A stretch of DNA of 64,000 bases from Beta vulgaris subsp. vulgaris (Eukaryota > Streptophyta > Magnoliopsida > Caryophyllales > Amaranthaceae), in contig NC_079205.1 of assembly GCF_026745355.1 (NCBI RefSeq), forward strand, positions 34,175,637 to 34,239,636, given 5' to 3'. A program made the position numbers and the translations under genes. Of the stretch, positions 4,850-58,720 are shown piece after piece. The notes under the pieces are model-generated. The model had not been told where the DNA came from and did not search any database. It saw only the letters and a list, made by a program, of their open reading frames with translations. Within the stretch, counting starts at the first letter, position 1. Every line of letters begins with the position of its first letter.

Positions 4850-6917
4850 GAGAATACATCCTCAGATTTAAGATTAATGGTGCTTGCTGACTCAGCTCAT
4901 ATTGCTCCTCTACATTTTTGTTCCCCTGTATTCCCATATTATGTATATACTGTGTAGAACCAGGATCTCAGTAAGTTAGCAACTGAAGTCTAACGTGACA
5001 TGATCACTGAAAAAAACTGCTACAGGGGTGGTTGGGGATGGAGGGACGGGGGAATTATGTATCGGTTATCCCAAGCATAAGTAGTTTAAGTGTGCAGTTG
5101 AATGCATTTCTCATTTCTGAGCCACAATTTGCATATATAGATCAAGTGTACAGTTAAATGCATTTCTCATTTCTGAGCCATAGTTTCGTTCTTCGTGGTT
5201 TTTCACCTCCTTCCCTTTTCCTGCAGTTAGCACTTTCTGTGATCACCACTGTTCCAAATTGATATCTGGACAGAGTTCATCAAATAAAATAGTTTGTGAA
5301 CCGTCTGAAAAGATATGAAGGAGAAATAAAACATCAGTTCTTATTTCATACTCCTCCCCCCCCCCCCTTTCTGGAAGACTGGAACATCTTAATTGCATAT
5401 TGTTAGTTTTTAATGATTACCTTTGACCATCATATCTTAATTAAGCATTTATTAATAGTATAGTAAAAAGTTAGTAGTTCATCTCTATTATATATGGGAA
5501 AGAGAGCAATGGTGTCCTTTTTTGAAATGCCTATTTTAATGTCAAAATCAAAATCGACACTGAAAGAAAATTACCGAAAATTAATTTACAACACTCACTC
5601 ATAAATCACTTAAAAGAAGAAACTTTACAAACCACTCATACAATTGAGAAGATCATGTTATAAAAATCACGCAAATCACTCAAATAATCGAAAAACTTTA
5701 TTAAAACTAATTAAAATAAACATACAAACTAAAACTACTAACCTAGAACGTCAATACATACAAAAACATTTACAAAAATTTACTTACAAATCACTATTAT
5801 CAAGAATCATTCACAATTAATGATAGGCCATGATAAAAAAAATAGAGGTGTATTTGTAGTGAAATCAGTTAGAAGTTAGAGAATTATTTACTTATTTTAT
5901 AGTGTTTCCTATATATAATATAACTTTTACATATATTTGGACCTATCTTTTTCTATTATATACTAGCGATTAATTATCAAGGTAAAAAAATTTATGTAAA
6001 ATATAATTCAAGAAATAAAGTACAACATATCTCTATTATATAAGGAAAGGGGGAGCCATGGACCATGGTGTCCCCGAATGAAAAGACTATGTTACTCCCT
6101 TCCTATTATAAATTACAAATTTACTTACAAATCAAAGGGGGCATCAAACAAAAATACCAAAAATATAATTATAACAATCACTCACAAACTACAACCTATG
6201 AAAAAATTGACTTGAAATCAAAGTGTCCGCTTTCTTTATAATTTATGAAGTACTGTACTTAATTCAAAAATCAACTAAAAAATTGTAATATTAGAAATCA
6301 TAAATAAATTCAATAAAATTTCTATTTTGTTCATAGAACTTAACTTTCAAAAGTATAAAAGAATGGTGAGAGACTTAAGTGACAGAAACTAAACCACTCA
6401 AATTTTGCAACTAAAAACAATTATACTTCGTATGTCTAATGTTCAAATTTCGACTCTTATGCCGAAGAAAATCGAGTTTTTGATTTGACAAAAAATTCTA
6501 GTAAATACATATTGGAACAAATCCAACAAGATCATGATGTGATTGATTTTTCTTATTTTAGAGTATTAGGGATATGCAGAAACAATGTCATGAATTTTTA
6601 CACAATGAGTTATTAGATGCTTTAAGAAAGAGAGAATAATCAGTGAAGCATGACAAACCGATATTCCTAAAAACAAGTTACAACCATTGGAAAGATTCAA
6701 CAATATTTAGATCAAAATATACATGGGGTCATGCAGTGGAGTCAATGAGTCATGGAGTGTGTACTGGTGATAAACAACCTATAAAGATAAGAGATTTGAG
6801 AATTATGAGTCGCAAGGGGAAAATATCAGAATTTAAGGGTGAGAGTATAAGAGAGAGAAAAAAAAGTGACCACGAAGTATTTTATATTGGAGTTTGATTT
6901 GTTCAATACGTAAGGTG
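4850..6917. other. Intergenic region with short repeats and Helitron-like ends
   Basis: No gene is supported. The first few hundred bases should hold the 3' UTR of the pseudokinase gene. A 56-bp-period duplication covers 5088-5188, with GCATTTCTCATTTCTGAGCCA in both copies apart from its edges. A poly-C run lies near 5357. Two segments beginning TCTCTATTATATA (near 5484 and 6031), each followed by a GGTGTCC motif, resemble 5' ends of plant Helitrons, but no matching 3' hairpin-CTRR end could be paired. A short open frame at 6643-6897 has no recognisable domain. Confidence 0.4.
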
Positions 6918-6926
6918 TCATAATCG

Positions 6927-6994
6927 AAGAAAGTCGCAGCGCATACCCGGTATTGGTAGGCAGTTATCAATACCGGGGTATTTTCGTAATTTCA
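6927..6994 (+). repeat. Left terminal inverted repeat of the MULE
   Basis: About 68 bp, pairing with 21194-21262. Two blocks are strongly conserved: CAGCGCATACCCG, and AATACCGGGGTATTTTCG followed by T(A/C)ATTTCA. They are separated by a diverged 21-bp spacer of equal length in both ends, as expected for transposase-binding subsites. Confidence 0.9.
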
Positions 6995-7731
6995 ACGCAA
7001 AAAGACAAATGTTGACTTCAGCAATTAGTTTTCTGGACTTGTTGACTTAGGCAAATAGATTTTTAGGTTAAGAGAGAGACAGAGAGTTGAAAAAAACCAG
7101 AGAATAAACAGAGAATGTCTGAAAGGAAGAGAGAAATAGGAAGAATTCCTCATAAGTAATTAACAAAAGAGAATTGTGGTATTTAAAATTGTCAATTTGC
7201 GACGATGATGAGCACGATGATGATTTGCGAAGGAGAAGGAGGAGAGAAAGTTGCGGTCAGCACAGAGGAGAATAGCGATGGAAACAATGTAAATGAAAAA
7301 AGGTTTGACTTTGTTAAATTTGTGGCATGCATGGTGTGTAAGAAGGGTTGACTTTGGTGAATTTATCAATGAATTTTGTTTTGCATTTATTGTTGATGAA
7401 AAGGGAATGTGAATTTAATAGGTTGGCAGAAAATTGTCAATTTTTTGAGGGCAAAGAATTGAATGGTGTAATATTGTTATGTATTATGTATAATTATGTA
7501 TAAGAAAACAAAATTTGTGTTGATGATAATAAATAAGCAGCAGCATTGATTTTAGAAGTAAATAGGGCACCATTAATAAGCAGCAGCATTGATAATTTTT
7601 TGAGTAGTAATATTGTTGATAAAACAGTTGTATGGGTGTGCATTAAATATGTTACATATTTCTGACAAATGAAAAAAAAAAATTGTGTTCTTCATGAATA
7701 GGGTCCTGAATTGTATGAGATTAACGGAGAA

Positions 7732-10700
7732 ATGTATGTTGGGAAAGGTGCTGTGGTAGAGTCATTACATGTTGAGGGTAATGATATAGTAGCTGTTACT
7801 CCGGAGGGGAGAGTAACTGGATGTAGAATAGGTGAGGTTAGTGTGTTAGCCCCCCTGTATGTTGGTATGGTTTTTCCTAGTTGGGAAGGGACTGATAGCT
7901 ATTATAAAAAATATGGTAAGCAAGAAGGGTTTGGTGTTGTTCGGGCATCTTCGGCATTTAGACAAAAGAAAGTAGGTGAAGAAAGGAAACGGCGTAATGG
8001 GTCATGGACATGTGAATGTTATGGTAAGCCTGAAAGTAAGAAAAGAGTCAGTGGTTCGATGTTTGTGACGGATTCACTGGTTAGTGACGAAAGTGGTGTG
8101 AAGAAGTCAAAGAAGTGTCAATGTCCTGCCATGATCTATGCAAGTTTGAATGAAGATGATGAGTGGGTGATTAGGAGGGTTGTGTTAGAACACTTAAACC
8201 ATGATCCTACACCATCAAAGTCCCGACACATAAGTATGTATCGCAAAGAGGAGTTGTCAAATCATGTAAGGAGAAAGCTATTCAATGATTATAATTCAGG
8301 AGTGAAGATACCCCAAATACATGATTGTTTGGCTAGAGAGAGGAATGGTGTTGAGAATTGGGTCGTAACGGAAAGAGATTTGCGCAATGAAGTTAGCAAG
8401 GTTAAGAGGCTGAGGCTTAGGGATGGTGATGCTAACGCGATGCTTGAGTATTTCAATAAAATGACTGCAAATAATCAGAATTTCTTTCATATGCATAGGT
8501 TGGATGAGAATAATTACTTAAAGGACATAATGTGGGTTGATGCTAGGAGCAGAGTTGCATATGAGGAGTTTGGTGATGTGGTTTGCTTTGACTCTACCTA
8601 CCTCACTAATGAATATGAGCTTCCATTTTCTAATTTTGTTGGTGTAAATCACCATGGGCAAAGTATTCTACTTGGTTGTGCTCTAGTCTCTCATGAAAAT
8701 ACTGAGACGTTTGAGTGGCTATTTAGGACTTGGCTTATATGTATGGGTGGTAAGTCTCCTGGTGGGATATTGACTGACCAATGTGCAGCAATGCGCAAAG
8801 CGTTGCGGACATCGATGCCTAATGCTCGTCACCGTTGGTGTCTTTGGCATATCACTGAAAAGTTTTGTGCAAAACTAGGAATGATTGAGGGGTATGAATA
8901 TTTCAAGGACGAGCTTTTGAATGCCATATACGATAGCTTGGAACCGGAAGAGTTTGAGGCGAATTGGAGTTCAGTTATATTGAAGTACAAGAAGTTGTCC
9001 TCTAATGAGTGGCTGGCAGGTTAGTTATGAATTTGTCGTATATTTTGCATATTTGCATGGTTAGTATAAATGCTTAAATGCTTATGTTTATTATAATATG
9101 AAAAAATTTGCATATTTGCATTAGTATAAATATGCATCAGTTTTGGGTATTTGCATTAGTATAAATATGCATTAGTATAAATAAGCATATCACTGAAAAA
9201 ATTTGCATATTTGCATATTTGCATTAGTATTAAAAATGTGACAGTAAGTAAACTTAGTGCTTAAATGCTTCAAAATGTGAAGCAGCAGTGTGCATGGTTA
9301 GTAAACTTAATGTGCATCAGTGTGCTTCACAGTAGCATGTAGTATCACTCACCTAGCAGCAGTGTGCTTCACAGTAGCATGACAGTAGCATGTAGGTTTT
9401 TTTGGTGTATGCTTCACAGTAGCTAATGTGGTAAAATGTGAGCTGATTTGATATTTTGCTGTAGGTTTATATCGGGAGAGGGAGATGTGGGTCCCTGCTT
9501 ACCTAAGGCACATGTTTTGGGCGGGAATGAAAACAACACAAAGAGTGGAGGGCATGAATAGTTTCTTCGATGGGTATGTAAATAAACATACGAGGTTGTA
9601 TGAGTTTGCTGAGCGTTATTGTGAAGCAATGGAAGTACGTGCGAACACAGAGAAGCTTGCAGACGCAAATTCCGGGAGATATGTCCGTGAACTAGTGACT
9701 GATTTTGCGGTAGAGAAAGTATTCCAGCGTGTATACACTGATTCTAAATTCAAGGAGGTGCAACGAAAGTGCAATAGAACAATATATTTAATGTTCCATG
9801 GGAAGAATGTTATATCTGATAACATTGTAGAACATTTTCTGGAGGATAGAGTATGGATTCGATGTCGGGAAACAAAGAAGGAAATTCCTTCGAAGAAGAA
9901 GCGGACATACAAGATTAGGGTGGACTTGGTTTTGCATGACGTTAGCTGTTCATGTAAATCATTTGAGTGTCACGGAATAATGTGTCGGCACACCATCATG
10001 GCATATGAGATGCATGATAAGTTGGAGGTCGCTGAGAAGTATATACTTAGGCGTTGGAGGAAAGATGTGCAGAGGAAGCACACAAGGGTGAAGGTTGCGT
10101 ATCATGATCCTTTGAAAACAGATGAGGTACGTCGTTATGATTTTATAATGGAGAAGTTTGTTCCTATTTGTGAGAATGCATCGGTGTATGAGGAAAATAT
10201 ATTTGTTTGCGTGGAGTTGCTTGATTTGCTGTCAATAAGGGTAAGTGAGAGTAGTGCGATGGTTTTGAGGCGGTTGAATGGAGAGGAGGAGGAAGATATT
10301 AATCCATCCTCAGTAGGTAAGAAGAAGAAGTGCACCCCTGATTCAGTAAACAAGGGGGGTTTGAAAAGCAAAGATGCGGAAAAGGTAAATGTGAAAGACC
10401 CCCCATGTCGAATGTTGCCTCACAGAACTCGTGATGTTCGATTCTACGGTGCTGTTGAAAAACCAATAAAGAAGAAATGTCGGAAAGGGAAGAGAGTGAC
10501 AGTGACGAAGAAGAAGAGGGGTACTCCATCGCTGGACATGCAGCTGGGTGAGAGTGGTTTGAATGGTTCACCAATGTTGAACCCGTATGCTTTAAAGGTA
10601 AGTTATTTAATAACATATTTTTGCAGTAGTATAATTCTTTGAAAGTGTGTGATATATTTAAGAAGTAATGTAACACTGTGTAGACACCGGAAAGCGGAGG

Positions 10701-11000
10701 CGGCGACATGAGCATGACTTATGGGTCTGCCATTACATCAACACCAAGTGGTGGGTTTGGTGTATCGATGGAGGTATTGCATATTTTAACATTTAAATGT
10801 TTTGTAGTTATAAGTTTTGTGTTATGTTATGGAAAGTGTTAACGAAAAATTGGTGCAATTGTTAACAGTTAGGAGAATCGCACAGTGGTATTCCAATGGT
10901 AGATGCAGATGGGTCGATAGGGTATTTTACGCGGCTGCTTAGTAGCGGAGGAGTTGGGAGTGAATTCACTAGTGCATCTGTTGCGGGGTCTAATGCATAG
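7732..11000 (+). CDS. MULE transposase, FAR1/FHY3-related
   Basis: Four exons join in frame: 7732-9019, 9465-10597, 10684-10773 and 10869-11000. This gives about 880 residues from the first ATG; the open frame extends upstream to an AG at about 7700, so a further 5' exon is possible. The N-terminal part has a FAR1-type DNA-binding region (roughly residues 45-165). The MULE catalytic domain follows, with acidic residues visible in VVCFDSTY, GGILTDQ and, across the first splice, TQRVEGMNSFF. A SWIM zinc finger (CSCKSFECHGIMCRH) lies near 9950-9995. The basic C-terminus is rich in K/R. Residue order and splice position match FAR1-type plant MULE transposases. No frameshift or stop was seen, so it may still be active. 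Intron 1 is full of TTGCATTAGTATAAATATGC-type simple repeats. Confidence 0.9.
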
Positions 11001-11750
11001 ATGCATAGTTGAATTTATGCAATGATAAAAAACTTGCAAACATAGTAAATTTTTTGTAAATGTCACATAGTTAATTTTTTGTAAACTTGCAAATGTCGCA
11101 ATATATTTGTAAATTTAGAAGTTAAGAAATTTTTTGTAAACTTGCAATCTTTGATTGAGAAGTGAAAACATTTGGGTAAAAATAACCCAGATTTCATTCA
11201 TTGAGTTTGTAAAAATAGGCCACATTGGAGTGGGTTAGATTTCCTCAAAGGAATGAAAATAGCCCACTGGCTTGCTTTGGCTGTTGTAAAAAAATCACAC
11301 TCTTTGAGTATTTGAGTAGATGAACGAAGCCCAAGAAAGCAAAGAAAGAAAACTCCTCAAAACTGGAAAGAATTCATTGTAAACGGGCCTAATAAGCCCA
11401 TAACGCACTGGCAGCCCAAGAAAGCAAAACAAAGCCCTGAAAAGGCAAAGAAAGAATTAGATGGGCCTAATAAATGGGGCTAATAAACAAAGCACCGAAA
11501 GTTGAAAGAAATTAGTCATTAAACTGAATAATGGCCTCCAAATTCATTAGTTAAAATATCTTGAAAATACCTGCTCTACAATAACAATAACTAATAACTT
11601 TGAGAGTGTAATTAAACTTGGTAGAGGAAAAGGTGTTATGAAGTAATAAATGTAGTAAATGTTGTTGGATTATATAATAAGAATAGTGAACTGATTTTAT
11701 ACACAACAAAAAATCAGTTGGGATACTCCTTTGAAGTTAAAAAAAAAATC
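11001..11750. other. Non-coding spacer inside the MULE
   Basis: AT-rich spacer between the transposase stop and the SUMO-like gene. It contains repeated TTTTTTGTAAACTTGCAA phrases (11030-11150) and an A/G-rich stretch with repeated AAAGCAAAGAAAGAA (11330-11460). The last 100 bases probably hold the promoter and leader of the SUMO-like gene. Confidence 0.5.
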
Positions 11751-12446
11751 ATGAGTACTCCAACTCCGAAGATTAAGATACTTGTGAAAGCGGGTGATCT
11801 AGCGGATAATGGTGTTGGTTACGTGATATCTCCACACACGCAACTTTCTTCACTTTATGAGTTGTATGCAACACGAGTTGGTGTAGATGTGAATGATTTG
11901 TATCTTATGTGTCGGGGACAATATCTTCGACAAGATACAACATCTTTCGTGTACGGGTTTGATGACACCGAACTCGTACTAGCATATTCCAAGGTACGTT
12001 CCACCATAATCAGATCAAACTAATTTTACCTCAGATTGTGGTTTTATTAAATCAAATCTTAAAGTTATGTACTTAGATCAGATTGCGGTTGGCACTAAGC
12101 TGTGGATTGATTTTCGCATATATAACTTATAAGATGAAATTTTAACATTATTTTAACATTATTGTTTCATGTGTAGTCGGGAGTGGCTGTTGCTGGTGAT
12201 CCGGACATTGATCCGGACTACTACTTTATCACGATGCGGGACCTTAAGAACAAGCCTAATGTTGAAATATTCAGGATGAAATGCACAACGAAAATCAAAA
12301 AAATGGCAATGTTATGGGCCTTTACACAAGACGTTGAATATGATAAAATAAAGTTGTACCAAAATGGTGATTGCCTTGATTTGGATGGTAATTTTATAAG
12401 TGAAGGTATTGTTGATGGTGACGTCATATACGTCGTGTTGGGGTAG
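11751..12446 (+). CDS. Tandem SUMO-like (beta-grasp) protein carried by the MULE
   Basis: Two exons, 11751-11993 and 12177-12446, join in phase 0 with a GT-AG intron and encode 170 residues. Each exon carries one ubiquitin-fold domain of SUMO type. Domain 1 (about residues 7-79) runs from KIKILVKAG through LYLMCRGQYLRQDTT to GFDDTELVLAY. Domain 2 (about residues 95-170) runs from YFITMRDLKNKPNVE to GIVDGDVIYVVLG, where the DGDVI-type turn is the signature of SUMO and SUMO-like domains. The protein ends in a single glycine, not a diglycine tail, so it probably cannot be conjugated as it stands. Two SUMO-like domains in tandem recall the Rad60/Esc2/NIP45 group, which binds SUMO enzymes (family knowledge). 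A role in SUMO signalling for the transposon is inference, strengthened by the Ulp1-like gene in the same element. Confidence 0.72.
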
Positions 12447-13309
12447 TATCAACGGTACTATTATAGTAGTAACCATTTTAAAAGCACTTTGTAAACATTA
12501 CGGGTGAAAGTATCAACGGTATGATTTGCGGGTATGAAAGTACTAAAGTAGTAAGGGTTTGTATGTAAGTGTTTTTGTTAGAAATGAAAGTAGTAGTAAC
12601 TTTTGTATTACAGGAACATAAGTACATTTTGTAAACATTTTAAAAGCGTATGAAAGTAGTAACGGTTATTGTTTTGTTAAAAGACCGAGTGTGTTGTTAT
12701 AATTAGTAGCTAGTATAAGAAACCGAGTGGGATAAAATATGAAAGTAGTAACGATTATTGTTTTGTTAAAAAACCGATTGTTTTGTTATAATTAATAACT
12801 AGTAATTATCATATATTGATTTTCATATCTTCGGTTAAATAATTCAGATCATTTATGAAGTATATCTAATCAGGGATGAAATAATTCAGATCATTTAGGA
12901 ACATAAAGAAGTTATATTAATTTGCAAGTAACTCAAATCAATATTGTTTTATCTCATATCGTATTGAAAGTAAGTCAAATCATTATGTAAGTAAATCAAA
13001 TCAGTTTGAAAATAACTCAGATCATGGGTATGAAATGAACCAACATTTGAAAGTAATGAAGTGAGATTATGTAAATCACATCATTATGTAATGAACCAGT
13101 AATTAGCTTATCTTAATTAGTTATTACATAAGTTTTTCGACACTTAATTAACTTATCTTAGTATGTAATGTAATGAACCAACACATCAAGTAATCGAGAA
13201 ATAAGCAAAGATAGGTAGTTATCTTAGTTATCTTAATTGAAACAACGTAATTGATTCCATTAGCATTTCATTGATCGACATATCGGTAAAACAAAGTAAC
13301 TGAATCGTT
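12447..13309. other. Repeat-rich MULE spacer, low-complexity
   Basis: No gene is supported. The sequence is built from degenerate short phrases such as GAAAGTAGTAACG and CAAATCATTATGTAAGTAA, and probably arose from repeated slippage or transposon-internal tandem duplication. Confidence 0.45.
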
Positions 13310-13790
13310 AGTAGGGGATCATTTCATTGATCATTTCAACCTTTTTGAATCATTAGTAGGGGATCATTCATCATCATGGATGATCGACCTTTTTGAATCA
13401 TTAGTAGGGGATCATTCATCATCATGGATCCACCTTATTGAATCATTAGTAGGGGATGATCATTGGTAGTAGGGATTAGCAATTCATTCATCGACGTATA
13501 CAATAATTAGTAAGGGATCATTTCATTCATCGACATGATGATGAATGATCCCCTACTAATGATTCAATAAGGTCGATCCATGATGATGAATGATCCCCTA
13601 CTAGTAACCTAATTAGATGAAATCATTAGTAGAAATCATTGGTAGTAATTCATCATTGGTAGTAGGGATGGGATTAGCAATTCATCAACATATCGCTCGT
13701 ATACAATAATTAGTAAGGGATCATGGTATACTAAATCATCATTCATCAACATATCGCTCGTATACTAAATCAGATCATGGTATACTAACT
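13310..13790. repeat. Inverted and direct repeats built on a GATCATTCATCATCATGGAT phrase
   Basis: The phrase ATTAGTAGGGGATCATTCAT recurs on the plus strand (about 13310-13460), and its reverse complement occurs around 13540-13605, so the block can fold into a long imperfect hairpin. A shorter ATCAACATATCGCTCGTATA repeat follows twice (about 13685-13770). Confidence 0.6.
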
Positions 13791-14019
13791 TTATAAAAAT
13801 TGTTTAAAAATATACCGGCCATTATATGTCATACAATATTACGATTTTATTTCATTTTATATTTGCATAGCTATCATTTTATATTTTAGTGTATTAGTCT
13901 AACATTTGTCATTGTCTATTATTTTCTATTTAGTCTATTATTTAGTGTATTAGTCTATTAATTAAGATCATAACATACTTGTCATTGTCGATAATCTTAA
14001 ATCATATCATAACATACTT

Positions 14020-14125
14020 AAATCAGATCATAAGAAACTTAAATCAGATCATAAGAAACTTAAATCAGATCATAAGAAACTTAAATCAGATCATAAGAAA
14101 CTTAAATCAGATCATAAGACACTCA
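14020..14125. repeat. 21-bp tandem repeat, about five copies
   Basis: The unit CTTAAATCAGATCATAAGAA plus one A repeats about five times almost exactly, with degenerate copies at both ends. It lies just past the 3' end of the GRF gene. The open reading frame it creates is a repeat artefact. Confidence 0.85.
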
Positions 14126-14219
14126 AATCATAAGAAATTAATAACAAAATTCAACAATTAAGTAGATCTTCCAACATTGCAAATCAGTCCACTACATTAA
14201 TATCTAATATCTTAATAAC

Positions 14220-14730
14220 TTAAGAAAAGTAAAGTGCAAATGCAAAAACAATCCAAGACATGACTAATGCAACCACAATTGTCCTCTCTCTTCCAATTTG
14301 CTGGTCAAGAGTCACTTGTAATTCCTTAATCTCCTTTACAAATGAGTGTTGTTTCCCCTTCAACCTTAACACCTTCTGTTCGAGCAATTTGTTCTTGTTC
14401 ATCATATCTTCTATAACTGCATCTTTGTTTTTCGCCAATGCCTCCATTGTCGGAGTTAGCAAGTCATCCTCCCATATAAAGAAACCACAGTCGTCTTCCT
14501 GGCATCGGAAAAACAATTTAATCTGAGCAGAGAACAGAGGTAGTTTATAATTTTGCAAATATTGAAGTTGAAGTAACAGATTTTACCGGCCTTGAAGCGC
14601 AGCCAAAAAAACTCCGGCCACCATTGACACCGCGACTGGCAGTGCGCTTTTTCGCATCTCTCCTGTGGTAGCATTTGAGGACATTCCTCTTCCTCCCTCC
14701 CGAATTCGAAGTCGCCGGAGAATCAGCCAT
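14220..14730 (-). CDS. GRF-type zinc-finger, coiled-coil, tail-anchored protein
   Basis: Two exons on the minus strand, 14730-14587 and 14522-14220, join in phase 0 and encode 148 residues. Residues about 20-68 form a GRF-like zinc finger split by the intron. Visible ligands are C20, C44 (in RSFFGC), and the cysteines in RCQEDDCGFFIWEDD, with the characteristic aromatic CGFFxWxDD ending. A charged helical, probably coiled-coil region follows (about 80-128). The C-terminus is one hydrophobic span (TIVVALVMSWIVFAFALYF), a likely tail anchor. GRF fingers bind single-stranded nucleic acid in several DNA-repair proteins (family knowledge), and small plant GRF proteins of this architecture are common near transposons. 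It is transcribed divergently from the gene at 15031. Confidence 0.72.
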
Positions 14731-15030
14731 TGTTGTACGCTCCAATTTTGTCAGTGTGGGTTGGGATGTGGGTTCTTATCTTTAGTTGGGTTGTGGGTGG
14801 GTTGGTTATATTTTTGGGTATGGTTTGTGGTTTGGGCCCTACGGTTTCCATGTCACCTTGTATGATTACTTTATTTATTAAGCTAATTAATTGGTACATC
14901 TATCCAAGTCATGGATTTGCATTAAAAGAAACAACAACACACCTCTTCGGTTTCCTATTTAAGGGAGTTAAGCTTGCCCATTAATCTTAACCTCCTAAAT
15001 CTTCTCTAAATCTTCTCTCTTACTGTTCAC
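14731..15030. promoter_or_regulatory. Shared divergent promoter region inside the MULE
   Basis: A 300-bp gap separates the ATG of the GRF gene (-) from the ATG at 15031 (+). The right half contains TTCCTATTTAAGGGAG near 14955, a plausible TATA-like element about 75 bp before the second gene, followed by a TCTTCTCTAAATC-type pyrimidine-rich leader. Promoter function is inferred. Confidence 0.4.
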
Positions 15031-15798
15031 ATGGCATATCCAATCCTCCCCCCTCCAACTGGTTTCCTATACCACCCAGCCCCTGAAAATCTCATAAATC
15101 GCTGCCACCCATTCACAAGTAACGCGCCATTGGTTAACGTGAATGAAACATTCTATTTCATTTTCCTTGGAGAGGACAGAGATGAAGAAAATCGTGTGTT
15201 CTTGAGTCCCACGCATGTGAGACACCTGATGAGGACTCCTTTTGTTCGTTGGCCAAACCATATGCATAATTTGTATATGGTTACAGAAGATGGTAACGTG
15301 ATGCCCGGTTTCATTCCATCCTTGAATGACTTAGGCCGCCTTCCAGAAGCTGTTCGGGTCCTAATCAAGTGGGAAATGAGTGTGATGGATGAACAACATG
15401 TCGAACATATAATTGTTCCTTCGCAATGGGAACGTTATATGGACCCATACCCAAACAGCCCAACGAGAGGGTTTGTTTTCCTTCTCCGTGCAGCGAGATG
15501 TACTGTTGGCATGGCAACGTTCGAAGATGAACAAACCATTTTCCACGTTATGGGGAAAGTTAATCGTATTAGATTGCTGTTAACCGAGTATGGCACACCA
15601 ACAGGCAATGTTACGCCCTTCACCTTTGTCAAATTACACCCACACATGCTTGGGAATGCTGTGACAATACCTCTCCACACCCCAATTATAATCTGGAATG
15701 TAAGGGGTGCAACAAGGCCAGGTTTCATAGATCATCTTCTACATGTCATAAACATCCACAAACCGGAAAAACACAACTTTGTCTCCAAGCTGTTATGA
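15031..15798 (+). CDS. Unrecognised MULE-borne ORF, reading into an XRCC3-like segment
   Basis: A single open frame of 255 residues starts at a good ATG after a pyrimidine-rich leader. The N-terminus is proline-rich (PILPPPTGFLYHPAPE). The middle has mixed acidic and hydrophobic stretches (NETFYFIFLGEDRDEENRVF, LPEAVRVLIKWEMSVMDE). I do not recognise a domain. The last 11 codons overlap, in a different frame, the P-loop segment of an XRCC3-like ATPase. The frame therefore ends within that gene, and the two may once have been one reading frame. The uninterrupted length and non-repetitive composition argue for a real coding sequence. The function is unknown. Confidence 0.5.
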   Translation: MAYPILPPPTGFLYHPAPENLINRCHPFTSNAPLVNVNETFYFIFLGEDRDEENRVFLSPTHVRHLMRTPFVRWPNHMHNLYMVTEDGNVMPGFIPSLNDLGRLPEAVRVLIKWEMSVMDEQHVEHIIVPSQWERYMDPYPNSPTRGFVFLLRAARCTVGMATFEDEQTIFHVMGKVNRIRLLLTEYGTPTGNVTPFTFVKLHPHMLGNAVTIPLHTPIIIWNVRGATRPGFIDHLLHVINIHKPEKHNFVSKLL

Positions 15799-16477
15799 CT
15801 GCCCAACTACCGCCCAACTATGGAGGTATCTATTGTGGCTCTATTACTTGAACACTAATGGTCCATTTCCCGCTAAACGCGCAAGAACATTAGCAGATAA
15901 AATAAGTACAATATACGATTCCGGGGAAAATCCACTAGACAATGTCATTGTCAAGCAAGTCACAACTCCTAACGAAATGAATGTTGTTTTACATAATTTG
16001 AAATCATTGATAAACAACTCAATGGAAACAACCCGCCCATTGCGCATGGTCGTTGTTGATTCAATCACTGCGCTTTGTAGGTCCTACTTCGCCATGGATG
16101 CACTATCAACAAGGTCCACTTTCTTGTCCTCAGTTGCAAACGAACTTCTCGGTTTGGCTAATCAATACAACATGGTCATTCTAATCACTAATGAGGTGTC
16201 CGACGTAATTGACCCAAGTTGGAGGACTGTAGAGACTATGCACTCCTCTGGTCGGGAAGTTAAACCGTGTTTGGGATTGTACTGGAGTGGGTTTATTAAC
16301 ACAAGGTTGTTCCTAACAAAACACGATTTAGGTCACACAACCCTTAGGCATGCAACTATTGTCCAGTCCTCTTTTCTCCCTCGTGCTACAACTATTTTTC
16401 GTATTACAATTTCAGGCCTCGACGTTATTGAAGATGATGATGCCGGCCCAAGTTGTTCTTCTTCTAGCAATTGCTAA
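15765..16477 (+). pseudogene. Captured RAD51-paralogue (XRCC3-like) ATPase, frameshifted
   Basis: Translation shows RecA/RAD51-family core motifs closest to plant XRCC3. A Walker A end GKTQLCLQ and TAQLPPNYGG lie in one frame (15765-15830). The next segment, TNGPFPAKRARTLADK, and everything after it are in another frame (15840-16477). Walker B is in RMVVVDSITALCRS. Later come ILITNEVSDVID, SSGREVKPCLGLYW and FINTRLFLTKHD, all typical of XRCC3. Two frame changes near the P-loop break the catalytic start, and the N-terminal half of the Walker A glycine motif is absent. XRCC3 works with RAD51C in homologous recombination (established). Here it is transposon cargo. It could still yield a Walker-B-only C-terminal protein from an ATG further down (inference). 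Confidence 0.75.
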
Positions 16478-17039
16478 TCCTAAACTCATCTCACTACTAC
16501 TAAAGGCCTTTTATTAAGCTTTTGTAATGTCCCTTACTATGTAATCGGAATCTGATGTAATGTGTAACATACTATTTGCATTTTCAATATTCAAGATGTA
16601 ATGTTTCTTCATTTCAACCTTCTGTTACTTTTCCAATTTAACAATAATTAGCATTCTACAATATGGCCCTTACAAAAACTGTGGGCCATAAAATGCCTAT
16701 ATGGCTGGACATATACAAAACTATGGGCCATACAATGCCCATATGGCTGGCCATATACAAAACTATGGGCCATATAATGGCCATTTGCCCTATACAAAAC
16801 TACACAAAATATTGTTAGCAGCCAAATTCACCTTTCCTTCACCTTCTTTCAAACCCTGTCAAGCATTCCCTTAACACTCTCCTTCACCTCGTTCTCATCG
16901 GACAATACATCTTCTGTTAGCAGCCAAGTACTCTCCTCCTTTATGTTCCCACCCTGCACATTCACTTACTAATTATACTATGCCCTGCCCCCCCTCCCCC
17001 CTAAATCAAACACTATACTATAATATACATAACCACATT
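16478..17039. repeat. MULE spacer with 43-bp imperfect repeats
   Basis: Between about 16672 and 16800 a unit containing ACAAAACTATGGGCCATA and ATATGGCTGGCCATAT occurs three times with divergence. The remainder separates the converging 3' ends of the XRCC3-like and Ulp1-like genes and contains T-rich and CA-rich sequence with no gene. Confidence 0.55.
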
Positions 17040-20000
17040 ATACTAAATCAAACACTATACTATAACTTACAAAGCAACAATCAAACTTCAAACGAGCTGC
17101 ACATCCCTTTATAGCAAGCAGCATATGAATCCCGCTTCTGTTACAACCATTTCATGTTTATTAACCATAGGACAGGACAGGCTTATCTTAATGAACCACC
17201 AATTACTTACCCTTGATGAGAAGAGGCCATATGCACAGCCTTTGACCCCATATTCACAGCCTTTCTGGGCCAGTTGCATAGCTCACCACTTATCCAACTT
17301 ACATCAAATGAACAAAAAAAATTGTCCCCTCCCATTACCTAACACAGTACCACACACATTACATTAACAATAAATTACACCATTTTCAACATTACATTAA
17401 CAATAAATTACACCATTTTCAACTTTATTACTTATCAGTTTGTCAATAGCTTCACAATGCGCCTCAAGCGGTCTGTTACATTGTGAATCCATCACCCATA
17501 TTTCCTCTGTATTCACAGATACGGCAAGACACCACCAATGACTTCCCTCTAGAACTGGAATAAAGACCTAAAAATAAAATTATAACTTTCATTTTCATAA
17601 CTACCCACAGCCTATTTAGTAAATATCACAAAAATTTAGTAAAGTAACGATATTCTTACCACAAAAATTCTTTCAGCACGCACCCCTTTCAACTCATTGC
17701 AGCAGGTCCACCGCAACTCCGTTTCGTCTCCCAAAACACCACTCTGCACCATCATTAATTTTTTCAATATCAACTCATACGCGCTTATATTTTAAAATAT
17801 CAACACAATAATTAGTTAACCTACAGCAATAATCGGGTCAATCATAACACGCACGCTACGAACAAATTTCTTCCTCCATGACTTTGTATACATTGCTGCC
17901 ACAACCCTAACATACTAACAAGTCACAAGAAAATCCATTAAATTGATATAATAAATAAAATAACAACATAATCAATTAGATTTTTAAACAAACTAACATT
18001 TGCGTCAACACAAGCTTCATCAACACAAACAACACTCTTACAATCCCGCACCGTGGCAGATAATGAACCACATCTCACCATAACAGGATCGTCACTGCAA
18101 ATGCAACCAATAACACCATCACTCTTGCAAAAAACAATAAACTTAACTTAACAATATTACTTCGATATCTTCACTTAGTCAGAGGAGTAGTTGCAAACAA
18201 ACTTCACAATCCTTAACCTATAATGCGGGTAGACTTTAGGAATAATTTGCACATCAAAATCACTACCAAGCTTCACACTTACCCTTGTGCATCTCCGCCT
18301 CCTACTCTTCTACACATTACAAACCACATCTGTTGTTTCGGGTTGCGTCCCCGAAAGTGCATCATTACTACCCTGTTCCACATTTACACCGCTACCCTTG
18401 CTATTACCATCCATATTGCTACCGCCCAAACTTATATTATCACCACCCCTGAAGCTTGATCCCCACTCATACCTACCCGCATCAATTGGCGTTGTCTCCG
18501 ACAACCCAATATTCAAACGCCTAACTAGGCTTCCCACACTAAAATTACTAGTACTATGTGCCCCCTCCCCCTCCTCATGTTGTTGTTCCCCTAGCCTCAC
18601 ACCCTCCATGTCTCTAACAAAGGGTTCTTCTACATAAGGTTGTTCCCCCTCCCCCTCCTCATGCTGTTGTTCCCCCTCCCCCTCCTCATGCTGTTGTTCC
18701 CCTACACTAAAACCCTCCATGTCTTCTTGCCTCACACCCTCCTCTTCAATAATTAAAATCCTACCAACAGGATCCCTACCTTCACTCACTTCTCTTCTAT
18801 TTGTCCTATGCCTCAGCTCAACCCTTCCACCCCTACGTCGGGGCCGAATAACTTCACCTTCTGATTCTACTCCCATGTCACCTCCCATAACACCACCTAA
18901 TCCAAAACCAACACCTCCCATAACACCTCCCATGCGTGCACCAACTCCACCAACTCCCATGCGTGCTGCTGGTAGTTCTATACCCAAACCACTCAGAACA
19001 AGCCCAGCAATCTGCACATATTTCGCATATTATCATAACATCTTGTAATAATAATTTCAGTTAACGCCCAAACTTATATTATCCTAACCATGATGTAATA
19101 ATAATTCAGTTAATAACAAGCCCGCCCGCAGGATCATACCTTATAAGCCATGTGCTCTGGACCCATCGTGTCCCTCGGCATCCATCAATGCACTATTAAA
19201 TACATAAATTATTCACACACTTTCAAAATCTCTAATCAATGCACTACTAATAACTAAAATGATCATGTGTCAAAATATTACCTTCAGGCTTCCATAGTCA
19301 CCACTTCCAATTTTGTCCTCAGCTTTAGCTAAGTTCACATCTTGCACTGACCATGCTTTCACTCTAGGAAACATCCCCCAATTCAAAGGACGACGGTTCA
19401 GCCTATCCAAGTACAGAATCTGCAACACATCAATCATTTTAGCAATCTGGAAAGCACATCAATCATTTAGCAATCATATTTATATTTTCAAAAATACAAA
19501 TTCACTAACCGCAAGGAAGTATGTGCATCCCCCACATCCCTTTGCATAACTATCCTTATAAAACTTCTCTGCAAAGTGCCGCCCATGCTCAACTAACTTA
19601 TCCAATACAAGGGAACACCAATCATAATTCACTGCATCCATCGCCACAGTACAAGCAACCAACAACTTACTCTCTAGCCTTCGACAAGTTGTCGGGCACA
19701 GAAATTCCCCTAACAAAAGCATCAAAAAAGCCGTCTTGAATTCATGTTCTTGATCTACACATACGGAGCCCTCGACAACATCAATAACTTTAACCAATGG
19801 TACACCAACATCACTTGCATACCTCTCACGAATATTGCTCACTGCCATCTTCCTTCCTAGGTCCATGCGGAATTCACAAAATCCAATACACTTGGCTCTT
19901 ACCCAACGGGTACTTAACACCCCCCGGCAACATCAATACTTTGTTAAAAGGATCAAACAAAGACATTATCCAATAGCACAATGAACGTGGCAATCTCTTT

Positions 20001-20645
20001 CTCTTCAAATGAAGGATCCCCTCAAACCCCATCTCCCTAACCCACTTAATTTTCAAATCATCAAAACCACCTACTACTCTCCCTAGAGTCTCTACCCTAC
20101 AATTCACATTTGGGTGCGATCCATTACACTTATCTAATTGTGTTTTAACAACCTCTCCCCGTAATTTTACTTGTCCACCTTCACTGTCATGGGACTGCAA
20201 CACATTACATATACATAAACATATTCAACATTACTTACTAATTATATTAAATGTCAAAAAAATTAATATCCTTACCCTCAACATAGCTCCAGGCAAAACA
20301 AATTTGCTGCTCCTCTTGCTGCTCTCACCTGCATCACTCTTCCTATTCTTCCCTCCCTTGCTTTCTACAACCTTCCTTTTCCTCTTACCCTTCCTTCCTC
20401 GCTTCCTCAAATTGCCCTGCCAATCAGAAACATTAACATTAATCTAACTAAATAACTCATACACTCTACTAAATAACTCATACAAAAACATATACATGTA
20501 CATCAATCTAACTAACAACCTCTAAACACTCAGCTTCTTCCTCCAAATAGCTTCCACTACTCGCCTCTTCCTCCACATAGCTTCCACTAGTGGCCTCCTC
20601 CTCCACATAGCTTCCACTACTGGCCTCTTCGTCAACTATTGCCAT
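17040..20645 (-). pseudogene. Ulp1-type (SUMO protease-like) gene of the MULE, decayed
   Basis: Minus-strand exon pieces are recognisable at 20645-20520, 20416-20276, 20194-19510, 19419-19282, 19011-18310, then roughly 18300-18190, 18117-18000, 17907-17822, 17755-17660, 17567-17422 and 17135-17060. The N-terminus has three EEEASSGSY repeats and a K/R-rich nuclear-type segment. The region that accompanies plant transposon Ulp1 genes follows (LKRKRLPRSLCYWI, GGCTYFLA, ILYLDRLNRRPLNWG). A low-complexity section carries GEQQHEEGE repeats. The C48 protease core has its histidine in GSHWWCLAV and aspartate in WVMDSQ; the cysteine region reads SGIHMLLAIKG. Breaks are a TGA at 19876-19874 with a frame change after it, and a TAG at 18312-18310. 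Ulp1 enzymes cleave SUMO. The transposon family precedent is Kaonashi/CUMULE. Confidence 0.78.
18592..18720 (-). repeat. Coding minisatellite GEQQHEEGE in the Ulp1-like gene
   Basis: The minus strand encodes GEQQHEEGE three times, two copies adjacent and a third about 20 residues further on, between SVGEQQ and EGAHSTS. The DNA unit is about 27-30 bp. It adds an acidic low-complexity linker upstream of the protease core. Confidence 0.7.
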
Positions 20646-21193
20646 ATAACGTGCACTATTTCAATCAACACCTAAATCATAATCATAATAACAAAAAAAA
20701 AAAGGTTCATACAATTATATAAACTAACAAATATCATAATAACACTTCTAGAGTGAGTAGAACACCTTTAAAAATAACTAATTTCTCAAACAACAACATA
20801 TTAATCAACCTTAATAAATTCTACTTATGAAGATCTTAATTCCAACAATTGCAAACAAATCAAACAATTGAAACAATTCTACTTCTTAATAAATTATAAC
20901 CTTAATAGTATCTACCTAGCTTAATAGTATCTAATTAATTAACTTACCAATTTGATTTCGCAACAAAATCCTAGTGCTTCAACCAAAACACCACCGCTTC
21001 ACTTTACTTTCAGCTGAATTATATGAGGATAACCAATTCCACGGTTAAATTAACACATGCAAATGAGAATTCCGATGCTTCTTTGGTGTAAATGTATAAT
21101 TTCTCGCCCGAAATTTCACGTTCTCTCACTTCTCCCTTCTCTTGTTCTCACTTACCTTGTTTTACAAATAACCCCCCAAAACTGATTCCTGGG
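20646..21193. other. Right spacer of the MULE, promoter side of the Ulp1-like gene
   Basis: AT-rich DNA with no ORF of note. Because the Ulp1-like gene reads leftward from 20645, this stretch should contain its promoter and leader. It holds repeated ATTGCAAACAAATC and TTAATAGTATCTA phrases (20850-20945). Confidence 0.45.
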
Positions 21194-21262
21194 TGAAATG
21201 ACGAAAATACCCCGGTATTTACAACAACCCACATATAACGGGTATGCGCTGATCACGGCTCG
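21194..21262 (-). repeat. Right terminal inverted repeat of the MULE
   Basis: The reverse complement matches the left end block for block, beginning CGAGCCGTGATCAGCGC and ending GTATTTTCGTCATTTCA. It is followed immediately by the second copy of TCATAATCG. Confidence 0.9.
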
Positions 21263-21472
21263 TCATAATCGTCTCTTCTTTTTCTAATCCTTCAAGTAGA
21301 TCACTTACAATTTACAAACCCAAAAAAAAAACCCTCATACAAAGCTGCCCGACTTTTTAGTTTAACCCCTCAATTCTGTCTCGCTTCTTCTATGATTAAA
21401 CCCTTTCTTTTCTCTTATATTTCACCAAAACTTCACCATTTTCATGCATTTAGTACTCAACTCACATAATCA

Positions 21473-28130: not shown

Positions 28131-28195
<65 letters not shown>
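28131..28195. repeat. (CT)n followed by (TA)n microsatellite
   Basis: About 13 CT units lead into about 15 TA units, directly left of the element at 28202. Confidence 0.9.
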
Positions 28196-28201
28196 CCTAT
28201 A

Positions 28202-29538
28202 TAGGGGTAGGATCCGCTGAAAACAGCTCTTAGTTTGAAAACTGAAAACAAGTAAGGGTAACTTTTACCACTTTTAGGGTAACTTTATATACTTTAGGGG
28301 TAACTTTTGCCTCTTTTAGGGTAACTTCATTATATTAAGGATAACTTTATATATTTCAAGGACAACTTTATATATTATAAGGGTAACTTTTAGTACGTTT
28401 AGGATAACTTTATTATGTCATAGTTAATTTTTATCTTTTTAGGGTAATTTTGAGTATTATAAGGGTAACTTTGAGTATCATAAGGGTAACTTTAACTAAT
28501 AGTATTACAGTAACTTTTAAGTCTTGATATCCCCACCTTCTTCTTCAACCTTCATCTTCTTCAACCTTCTTTTTCTCCCTCAACTCTCATAAAAAAATCA
28601 GGATACCAAAAATCAAAAATAAAACCTCTGCAAATAGAAAACAGCAGCACTGGATGGACAATTCCTAGAACATTCTGCCATGTATAAGTGTTAAAAGACA
28701 ATGAGTTTTTAGAAGTTCCATACTCACAGAACTTTCATGTGAATGTTTCTTTTGCTACTTCATGTTGGCTCTTTGATTGTCAAACTCTGTTTGTTCGCTA
28801 TTTTCAAATATTTTTGTCCTGACGTGAATGACTTCTGGCTACGGCTTGATAATATATCTCATTTTCTTTGGTTTTCAAAAAGTTACAAGTTGGTCCACTT
28901 GGGCAAAGACAGATTTAACAAGCAGTTACCTGAGTACCTGTTTTTAGACATGTTTTTCAATATTTTGAAGCCAAAATCAAAAATAAGTAAAGATCAAAAA
29001 ATAAAACAAGAATCAAACCTCTAAAAATTGAAAAGGAAGTCGAGAAAACCTAATATGAACAATCAATCAGACACAATAATAATTGTTTAAATTCGCAAAT
29101 GAATAAGAGAGAGAGAAAAAGAGGGCAGAGATCAGAAAGAAGAAGAAGAGCAGTGTCGACTGTGAAGCTCGTTGCTATGGTGGTGTTCTTTATTTTCGCC
29201 ATTGGTTTGTTTAACCCACAAGTTTTCTAGGATTCGAATTCAAGCATTAGAATACATTAATTCATCTGAAATGGCAGATTTTGCCTTTGAATTATGCATA
29301 CTTACCATGAATTTGATGAAGTTCATAGAAATCAAATGGTGAGAGGAGAGAGAATTTGGGTTTTTTTGGGGGGGGGGGGGGAGGAGGATCGAGAGAAGGG
29401 GGGTTATTTTGGATTTTATGAGGGGAGGGACAAAGAATTCCAGCCCTTAGATCATCTTAGTAATATTATTTGATGGCCCAGATCTTCTGTTTTCAGTTTT
29501 CACATTAATGAGTGTTTTCACAAGATCCTATTCCTATT

Positions 29539-54739: not shown

Positions 54740-55748
54740 GGAATGGGATCTTGTGAAAACACCCATAAAGCTAAAAACTGAAAACTAAAGATCTGAGCCG
54801 TTGATTGTAAGATCGACGATTGCACACCACAACAAAAAAACACACTCACACACCACACCCCGCTCTATTTCCTCTCACACTCTTACTCACCTATCTGTTT
54901 CTCTCTCTCTTATGTTCTTCTGACCTCTCTTGCTCTCACTATTCATCTTCCCTTAAAAAAAACCTAGAAGCAAATCCATTATTCAATTGTTCACCTTTCA
55001 TTAAACGCCAGAGAAGTGTTTCGTGGGTGAGTCCGAATACGAGGAAGTTACACGGCGGAGGACAACGGCGTAAGGAGGATGCGATGGTTGAGAGTTCGAC
55101 ATGTGTCATGTGGTCGGTGGTGTTTGAGATGGATGCGTATTGGAGGAGTGCAGTGGAGATTTGGTCGGTGGTGGTTGAAGTGGTGGTGGTCGGTGGTGGT
55201 TGAGTGGTGGTAGTGGAGTTGAAGAGAGTGAGGTAGAATGTGAAGGTGAAGAGAGTGAAGAATGCGAGAAGCCATAAACAAGGAGATGATGATGTGGTTG
55301 GTTTGTAGATTGATGGGTGGAAAACGATGAGTTTTTGGGTGGGTTTCATTTTTAATTTTTTGAGATTGGAGGAGAGAGAAAATATGAGATGGGGATTTTT
55401 GAATTGAATGGGAGATTTTGGTGTAGATTTGTTGAAGACTTAAAAGTTACCCTTATAATACTCAAAGTTACCCTTATAATACTCAAAGTTATCCTTATAA
55501 TACTCAAAGTTACCCTAGAAAGATGAAAATATATATTATGATATAATAAAGTTATCCTAAACGTACTAAAAGTTACCCTTATAATATATAAAGTTGCCCT
55601 GGAAATATATAAAGTTATCCTTAATATAATGAAGTTACCCTAAAACAGGCAAAAGTTACCCCTAAAATATATAAAGTTACCCTAAAAGTGGTAAAAGTTA
55701 CCCTTGTTTTCAGTTTTCAGACTAAGAGATGTTTTCAGCGAATCCTAC

Positions 55749-55753
<5 letters not shown>
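54739..55753 (-). mobile_element. Microsatellite-embedded element, copy 2 (inverted)
   Basis: It is bounded by (TA)n on both sides. The left end, TAGGAATGGGATCTTGTGAA, and right end, GCGAATCCTACCCCTA, match the right and left ends of the element at 28202-29541 in inverted orientation. The array AAAGTTACCCTTATAATA (55438-55710) is the complement of the GGGTAACTTT array in copy 1. Middle sequences differ. Confidence 0.72.
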
Positions 55754-55788
<35 letters not shown>

Positions 55789-57618: not shown

Positions 57619-58720
57619 ATGAATACCACCGAGAAACTTGAAGAAGGTTATTCCACTCAAAGGCCTCCTATGTTCAATGGGAAGTACTACAACTATTGGA
57701 AGAACCGCATGGAGATATTCATCAAAGCTGAAAACTATCAGGTATGGAGAGTCATTGAAGTTGGTGATTTCGAAGTCACAACTACAAATGACAAAAATGA
57801 GGTAACTCTAAACCCCTCTCTGATTATGACAAATCTGATTTTGAAAAAATGGAAGTAAATGCCATGGCTATTAAACTTTGCATTGTGGACTTGGACCCCA
57901 TGACATAATAGGATCATGGGATGCAAATCCGCAAAGCAAATATGGGATTTACTAGAAGTAACCCACGAAGGAACTAATGAAGTTAAAAGATCGAAAATTG
58001 ATTTACTTATGAATCAATATGAACTGTTCTGCATGAAATCCAAAGAAAGCATCCGAGACATGTTTACTCGTTTTACTAACATTATTAATGAGTTGGCTTC
58101 TCTTGGAAAGTTTATTTCATCTGAGGAACAGGTTCGAAAGGTTCTTAGGAGTCTTCCTAAGGACAGATGGATGGCTAAAGTCACTGCTCTTCAAGAAACA
58201 AAAGACTTCACTAAGTTCAACTTAGAACAGCTGGCAGGGTCACTTATGACTCATGAGCTTCACCTTGATACTGAATATGGTGAAAGCTCCAAATCAAAAT
58301 CAATTGCTCTCAAAGCAGATGATGAAGATGATTCGGACTCAGAAGAAGAAGAAGCAGCCCTCATGGTTCGAAAATTTCGAAAGATGTACAGGAACATGAA
58401 GAATGGAAACTTCAAAGGTAAAACTAAGAAATTTTCTAACAAAGCTGCTTGTCATAAATGTGGTAAGTACAGATCACTTCATCAAGGAATGTCCTCTTTG
58501 GGAAAATGACAAAACCAAAGAAAGGAACAAGGAACGCTTTGCTGAAAGGAACAAAGAATCAAAAGCACCTTTCTCTAAGGCAAATGTGCGCAAAGCTATG
58601 ATAGCTGCTTGGGGAGATTCAGAGACGGAAGAAGAAGAGGAACAACCAACTGAAGAAACAGCAAACCTTTGCCTCATGGCAAACACTGACGAAAAAAGAA
58701 GAAGAAAAATTAGGTAGTAA
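57619..58720 (+). pseudogene. Copia gag remnant
   Basis: An ATG-initiated frame begins with the N-terminal copia gag motif (PPMFNGKYYNYWKNRM). It is broken by a stop near 57856 and a TAA at 57907, then resumes with the UBN2-type gag domain (IWDLLEVTHEGTNEVK, RKVLRSLPKDRW). An acidic stretch EDDSDSEEEE precedes a first zinc knuckle (CHKCG, 58452 on), in the middle of which the frame changes. It would form the capsid-like particle and bind RNA (family role). It is inactive as it stands. Confidence 0.82.

Follow-up and report, generated by a model that had tools for sequence, protein, structure and literature searches.

The stretch of Beta vulgaris subsp. vulgaris DNA analyzed here (64,000 nucleotides, termed the window) is part of contig C5 in the 569-Mb beet genome and contains a large transposon, a Mutator-like element (MULE) of the FAR1 type. 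The element proper occupies 6927-21261 (14,335 bp). From left to right, it carries genes for a transposase (+), a tandem SUMO-like protein (+), a GRF zinc-finger protein (-), an endonuclease-like protein (+), a RAD51-like protein (+), and a Ulp1-like protein (-). It is a member of a conserved multi-gene transposon family in which a RAD51 paralogue is a regular partner of the transposase.

Structure of the element and its genes

The ends of the element are firm, and the 14.3-kb MULE described in an earlier note on this DNA is borne out. Sequence comparison places a 10-bp target duplication, GTCATAATCG, at 6917-6926 on the left and at 21262-21271 on the right. The earlier note had correctly recognized an exact flanking repeat, but gave its length as 9 bp; within the window, the + strand has TCATAATCG at 6918 and 21263 only. 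Just inside the element start (6927) and end (21261) lie the inverted terminal repeats, at 6937-6994 (+) and 21194-21251 (-), which measure 58 bp at 84% identity in place of the matching 68-bp termini that had been claimed. Terminal inverted repeats are a feature of Mutator-like elements of the FAR1 (Jittery-like) type, and the MULE, FAR1, and SWIM domains of the transposase assign the element to this type. When the joined flanks of the element were searched against the same beet genome, an empty site was not found.

The transposase gene has two exons. The first (7702-9019, +, first in-frame Met at 7732) encodes the FAR1 and MULE domains, and the second (9465-10642, +), possibly spliced on after ~10598, encodes a SWIM finger. 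The domain matches are strong (MULE 4.5e-32, FAR1 1.9e-11, SWIM 5.4e-05) and both exons are without a stop, which agrees with the previous description of an intact FAR1-type transposase. Here and in the other genes of the window, exon joins are a reading of splice signals.

The SUMO-like gene also consists of two exons, at 11751-11993 (+) and 12177-12446 (+), which encode the first and second of two SUMO-like domains (two Rad60-SLD stretches, 4.4e-11). The protein ends in Leu-Gly in the window and in three sister copies, and so lacks the Gly-Gly conjugation tail; the proteins of two further loci, B and C, end in neither Gly-Gly nor Leu-Gly. A Gly-Gly tail is found only in the copy at C10:49.2 Mb (loci are given as contig and position) and in the annotated beet protein P0001 (LOC130592184), which by piece is up to 97% identical to the gene inside family copies.

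Between the SUMO-like and GRF genes lies a non-coding tract (12837-14130) with several arrays of tandem repeats, their units 20-47 bp long, and this is the stretch least conserved in the sister copies. Tandem repeats serve as anti-silencing targets in VANDAL elements. The GRF gene that follows has two exons on the - strand, at 14587-14730 and 14220-14498, the latter encoding a hydrophobic C-terminus (PF06839 match 9.2e-11). GRF fingers occur in repair proteins; the one encoded here is of a short type.

The endonuclease-like open reading frame (ORF; 15031-15765, +) has lost its 3′ part in the window copy and is 93% identical to the beet protein P0002 (BVRB_6g143210), which in turn is 92% identical to the gene inside family copies. 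Given the identity of P0001 and P0002 to genes in family copies, both gene models, LOC130592184 and BVRB_6g143210, probably represent transposon genes. Their predicted structures are unusable, with mean predicted local distance difference test scores (pLDDT) of 42.5 and 31.1, respectively. From about residue 210 on, P0002 matches long ORFs resembling long interspersed nuclear elements (LINEs) among the matches listed, so LINE ancestry remains likely for that part, and the endonuclease-like module may derive by capture from a LINE protein. A first reading of 15031-15765, based on the LINE-endonuclease-like C-terminus of P0002, was that a LINE piece had inserted into the RAD51 gene. This was rejected, as the ORF is kept near RAD51 in diverged copies and the two are 1.29-1.40 kb apart in three sisters.

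The XRCC3-like RAD51 gene of the window (15763-16477, +; PF08423 match 1.7e-15) has lost its 5′ end and its frame is broken. In other copies it is separate from the endonuclease-like ORF; in the window, the two are joined by a deletion, measured as 1.29-1.40 kb against three sisters, with a 2-base overlap at the junction, and there is one further frame change beyond the deletion. Both close sisters carry an intronless RAD51-like ORF of 273 codons. The Rad51 domain with Walker A and B motifs is present in sister copies, and the sister on C12 has the full domain (6.6e-34) with its Walker motifs. In profile comparison, XRCC3 is the closest solved structure. A frame change ~20-30 codons after Walker A is seen in the window, at C6:6.96 Mb, and at C6:57.36 Mb (loci L035 and L036 are concerned). 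A programmed frameshift was considered and rejected, since the places of the frame change differ and other copies read straight through.

The Ulp1-like gene (17071-20431, -) has several exons, one of which matches Peptidase_C48 (1.2e-05), and is interrupted by an in-frame stop and a frame break at places where the gene of the C12 sister stays open. In 8 of the 9 loci covered, the window included, the presumed catalytic Cys is replaced by Ser, and Cys is found only at C11:45.06 Mb; the exon bearing this residue was assigned by motif, and the Pfam match did not extend into it. The catalytic His is replaced by Lys in 6 of 12 loci and kept in the others, the window among them. Most copies read thus lack catalytic residues that mark a Ulp1 (C48) protease, and the gene probably encodes a protein without working SUMO protease activity. 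Pfam gave no match to the domain DUF1985 for two queries from N-terminal Ulp1-like sequence, one of which was a broken reading.

In the window copy, then, the transposase, SUMO-like, and GRF genes read through, while those for the RAD51-like, endonuclease-like, and Ulp1-like proteins are disrupted. The earlier note had counted five gene modules. Those for the transposase, SUMO-like, GRF, RAD51, and Ulp1 proteins are real, including the RAD51-paralogue and Ulp1-like modules whose genes are broken here, but a sixth, the ORF at 15031-15765, had been missed.

A conserved family in the beet genome

The left 174 bp of the element, used as a query, has 35 matches in the genome, of which 3 (window included) are 98-100% identical and the others 74-84%. 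Loci were fetched around 12 further RAD51-like places besides the window. Six full-length copies with both ends, counting that of the window, range from 14.3 to 20.5 kb, start with GAGAAAG (AAGAAAG in the window), and end with CTC. Each has its own exact flanking repeat of 10 bp (GTCATAATCG, GTCTACCAAA, ATTGATATAC, GAACCTCATG, TCCAAATTAT, and CTATTCTTGT), so the family makes a 10-bp duplication. All six fall inside the 8-11 bp range of MULE target duplications (PMC6446971; this and the other papers are cited from excerpts). At C1:19.15 Mb, a target duplication was looked for and not found. The possibility that these termini are unique to the window copy, which would have spoken against the original description, is ruled out by these further copies with the same termini and their own duplications. 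One copy, at C9:53.757-53.796 Mb (L013-L015), is apparently split in two: the left end, transposase, and SUMO-like gene lie in one stretch, the remainder and the right end ~20 kb off, and foreign transposase pieces separate the two parts.

The gene set recurs across the family. Two close sisters (C12:7.36 Mb and C5:11.9 Mb) have all six genes in the order and orientation of the window, and three diverged copies (C12:6.6, C1:19.15, and C6:8.37 Mb) have the same six genes in the same order at ~40-80% protein identity, depending on the gene. No GRF match is seen in the copy at C10:49.2 Mb. In a second subfamily, the genes are arranged differently from those of the window. The locus at C6:57.36 Mb has genes of all six kinds, in the order transposase (+), RAD51 (-), endonuclease-like (-), GRF (+), SUMO-like (+), and Ulp1 exon (-). 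At C6:6.96 Mb, the GRF, SUMO-like, and RAD51 genes point towards the transposase, an endonuclease-like match lies ~6 kb away, and a Ulp1 match was not found within the stretch fetched.

Genome-wide, 61 RAD51-like matches cluster to 52 loci, and 22 of the 61 (window excluded) lie in stop-free stretches of at least 240 codons. Among the matches listed (96 scored of 965 candidates for the transposase and 125 of 868 for the endonuclease-like ORF; a further list behind the counts covered 150 of 178), a related transposase lies within 20 kb of 40 of the 52 loci (control mean 0.25), an endonuclease-like ORF within 20 kb of 36 (control mean 0.23), and at least one of the transposase, SUMO-like, and endonuclease-like genes within 20 kb of 48. 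A SUMO-like gene is found within the same distance of 27 (control mean 0.23), and a GRF gene near 22 (control mean 0.3). The controls for the first three genes were 40 sets of shifted positions, which never gave more than 2. Coordinates were compiled by hand from match lists and then clustered. Endonuclease-like matches confined to query residues from ~200 on, where LINEs match, were dropped from the count; this filter removed most rows, and a few rows starting at 194 or earlier were retained. For the diverged copies and the deletion comparison, the endonuclease-like query was the 245-residue ORF of the window and not P0002. Among the matches listed, RAD51 lies within 20 kb of 38 of 68 transposase loci at 55% identity or more, 3 of 10 at 45-55%, and 0 of 7 below 45%, the last group being a small part of all FAR1-type genes.

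Between subfamilies, the proportion of nonsynonymous sites changed (pN) is below that of synonymous sites (pS) in every gene of the set. Compared with the window or the C12 sister, pN and pS, read as rough values, are 0.22 and 0.73 for transposase exon 1, 0.19 and 0.77 for SUMO domain 1, 0.28 and 0.78 for RAD51, 0.38 and 0.80 for the endonuclease-like gene, 0.30 and 0.90 for GRF exon 1, and 0.21 and 0.64 for the N-terminal part of Ulp1. As the Ulp1-like protein has lost its active site and remains constrained, it would be a binding protein rather than a protease. Between the closest copies there are few changes and the ratio ranges from 0 to ~1, a scatter that fits, as expected, the decay of single copies after insertion.

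In a tree of RAD51-like sequences, 13 rows from beet transposable elements (TEs), the spinach protein P0018, and P0017, P0019, and P0028 form one clade (support 97/94), apart from 16 plant XRCC3 rows. Left out of this tree were 10 of 55 rows, namely a liverwort row and rows with long branches, few filled columns, or an odd composition; in the fuller tree the TE-borne clade has support of 92/76. Alternatives that place one TE group with plant XRCC3 are borderline in the approximately unbiased test (p 0.050 and 0.040), and this test is weakened by the naming of the groups after the fuller tree had been seen. The TE-borne proteins form a clade separate from plant XRCC3 and do not appear as its orthologues. 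Spinach P0018, on a long branch, groups with the TE group of the window, so the split of the two TE RAD51 groups may, though not firmly, be older than the Betoideae/Chenopodioideae split.

Outside the element, the window holds a leucine-rich-repeat protein ORF of 460 codons (1091-2473; LRR_8 7.4e-19) and a Copia-type gag ORF (57904-58509; 1.6e-24). Two inverted copies of ~360 bp, 91% identical and 27 kb apart, lie at 28162-28525 and 55435-55788, the latter beside an ORF (54939-55439) with a weak IRX15/GXM match (4e-07).

Possible roles of the gene set

The earlier note had seen in the cargo a functional theme of SUMO and DNA repair, as opposed to random gene capture. The set is indeed non-random: diverged copies repeat its gene types and their order, a rearranged locus has the same types too, and changes are mostly silent. 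The SUMO and repair theme itself stands less well, given the broken RAD51 and Ulp1 genes of the window, the loss of Ulp1 catalytic residues in most copies read, the SUMO-like protein without Gly-Gly, and an endonuclease-like ORF that seems in part to come from a LINE. The six genes may nonetheless serve one function.

It has long been asked how cut-and-paste transposons gain copies. Host RAD51 paralogues load or stabilize RAD51, and a RAD51 paralogue kept with a transposase would act at the step of gap repair. The reading preferred here, to which a probability of roughly 0.45 is given, is that the XRCC3-like RAD51 and the tandem SUMO-like protein steer repair of the excision gap towards the homologous pathway. 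In this scheme, the transposase would cut the element out, and the RAD51-like ATPase would load or stabilize host RAD51 at the gap. Templated repair would then restore the element at its old site as the cut copy moves on, resulting in multiplication. The SUMO-like protein (in this copy without a conjugation tail) and the Ulp1-like protein (mostly without catalytic residues) would be SUMO mimics or binders that tune repair or silencing, and the GRF and endonuclease-like proteins would bind DNA or process ends. The 1.29-1.40-kb deletion of the window copy, with its 2-base overlap, could be a trace of interrupted gap repair. Copy gain of cut-and-paste elements has been modelled as gap repair from the sister chromatid or homologue, on evidence described as "far from conclusive" (PMC10288884). 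A RAD51 paralogue kept beside a transposase at about forty loci, among the matches listed, would offer a direct test of that model.

An extension of this proposal is that the transposon brings its own homologous-recombination factor, a RAD51 paralogue that would load host RAD51 onto the gap with the aid of a tandem SUMO mimic and a mostly dead SUMO protease, and forces templated repair, so that a cut-and-paste element in effect copies itself, and that its kin in the Amaranthaceae, the family of Kochia scoparia, promote recombination and gene amplification, the element at the kochia EPSPS locus being one of them. This wider claim seems unlikely.

Several observations weigh against the gap-repair reading. 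A copy with all six genes unbroken was not found among those fetched: the C12 and C5 sisters both have broken transposase and endonuclease-like frames, and Walker A is altered in the RAD51-like protein of the C5 sister. The set is also incomplete or arranged otherwise at some loci. At C9:49.19, C2:15.74, C2:17.32, C3:46.03, and C12:16.45 Mb, the endonuclease-like ORF is on the strand opposite to RAD51; C11:45.06 Mb shows RAD51 and Ulp1 only, and C11:43.74 Mb shows RAD51 only, in 16.5 kb. Among the matches listed, 12 of the 52 RAD51-like loci are without a related transposase within 20 kb, and just 27 have a SUMO-like gene nearby. The weakest contrast of changes is that of GRF exon 2 with the B locus (pN 0.45, pS 0.59), and silent sites are near saturation in most subfamily comparisons, which makes for rough ratios. 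Finally, the four genes of the kochia element were unexpressed in the RNA data of the paper that described it (PMC6808082).

A somewhat unlikely alternative is that the set is an anti-silencing kit, in which the Ulp1-like protein would act like KIU/VANC, the SUMO-like protein would titrate SUMO-dependent silencing, and RAD51 would be secondary. VANDAL elements with KIU cause hypomethylation of related elements and have a conserved Ulp1 domain to which no function has been assigned (PMC13317346). The beet Ulp1-like protein keeps pN (0.21) below pS (0.64) with its catalytic residues mostly lost. Likewise, VANC targets evolve by tandem repeats (PMC5735166), and the repeat tract at 12837-14130 is poorly conserved in sisters. 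However, DUF1985, the domain named for VANC, was unmatched by Pfam in the two N-terminal Ulp1-like queries, and it is RAD51 rather than Ulp1 that is most regularly found beside the transposase, on genome-wide counts that covered the RAD51, transposase, SUMO-like, GRF, and endonuclease-like genes. RAD51 paralogues can help or hinder filaments, and the RAD51-like protein might mainly alter recombination between element copies, or inhibit host RAD51, instead of acting in gap repair. The kochia element, whose listed gene types are the same, sits where the units of a tandem amplification join, which would fit this, but a RAD51-like gene is not named among its four predicted genes (PMC6808082) and the benefit of such exchange to the element is not obvious. 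This explanation is quite improbable. Passive hitchhiking, in which genes caught once by an ancestral element persist without function for it, is likewise given little probability. MULEs often capture genes, and individual copies of this family are decaying, but between subfamilies every gene has a pN well below its pS, and the stop-free stretches of at least 240 codons (22 of the 61 RAD51-like matches, window excluded) are at odds with mere persistence.

Comparison with known systems

Pack-MULEs are defined by varied gene fragments without a transposase of their own. The beet element has its own transposase and a recurring, constrained gene set, which indicates that large MULEs can persist as multi-gene units rather than acting as gene thieves. 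MULEs that bear Ulp1, Jittery-like elements among them, are known from Arabidopsis, melon, rice, and grapevine (PMC2528002). Those of grapevine resemble the beet element in their Jittery-like transposase, their downstream Ulp1 gene, and their size (families of 11.9 and 14.4 kb), but SUMO-like, GRF, endonuclease-like, and RAD51-like genes are not mentioned in the excerpts of that paper. The Kaonashi/VANDAL-KIU elements of Arabidopsis similarly combine a transposase with a long-kept Ulp1-like gene of unclear function, and in KI-MULEs Ulp1 is opposite to the transposase, as in beet (PMC13317346, PMC5735166). In contrast to the beet element, with its terminal inverted repeats, they are non-TIR (terminal inverted repeat) MULEs with a mudrA-type transposase, and the excerpted text mentions neither a RAD51 nor a SUMO-like gene.

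Two of the cargo proteins have counterparts outside transposons. Plant XRCC3 shares the full Rad51 core and the Walker motifs, and is the best solved match, but it is 30-42% identical to the RAD51 of the beet element, which is intronless, transposon-borne, and in a separate clade. The di-SUMO-like (DSUL) proteins of grasses likewise have two SUMO-like domains each, and some concatemers are without a conjugation tail; they differ in being encoded at a chromosomal grass locus, and the words "transposon" and "transposable" are absent from the main text of that paper (PMC6680281). A report of a RAD51- or XRCC3-carrying transposon was not found among the titles and abstract starts listed by searches of the openly licensed literature, which is weak evidence of absence.

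The closest counterpart is the 16,037-bp mobile element of the Kochia scoparia EPSPS locus, which carries FAR1/SWIM, ubiquitin-like, and endonuclease/exonuclease/phosphatase genes and one gene without a domain, in that order (PMC6808082). By description, its size falls within the 14.3-20.5 kb of the beet family, and its three named gene types and their order match. It differs in that RAD51-like, GRF, and Ulp1 genes are not named in the excerpts, nor are terminal repeats or a target duplication described; the RAD51 of that paper is a 4.8-kb gene within the duplicated tract, distinct from the TE-borne RAD51. The kochia element lies at the junctions of the tandem amplification, for which the authors propose unequal crossing-over. 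If it belongs to the family described here, as its gene list suggests, then this family has reshaped an agriculturally important locus.

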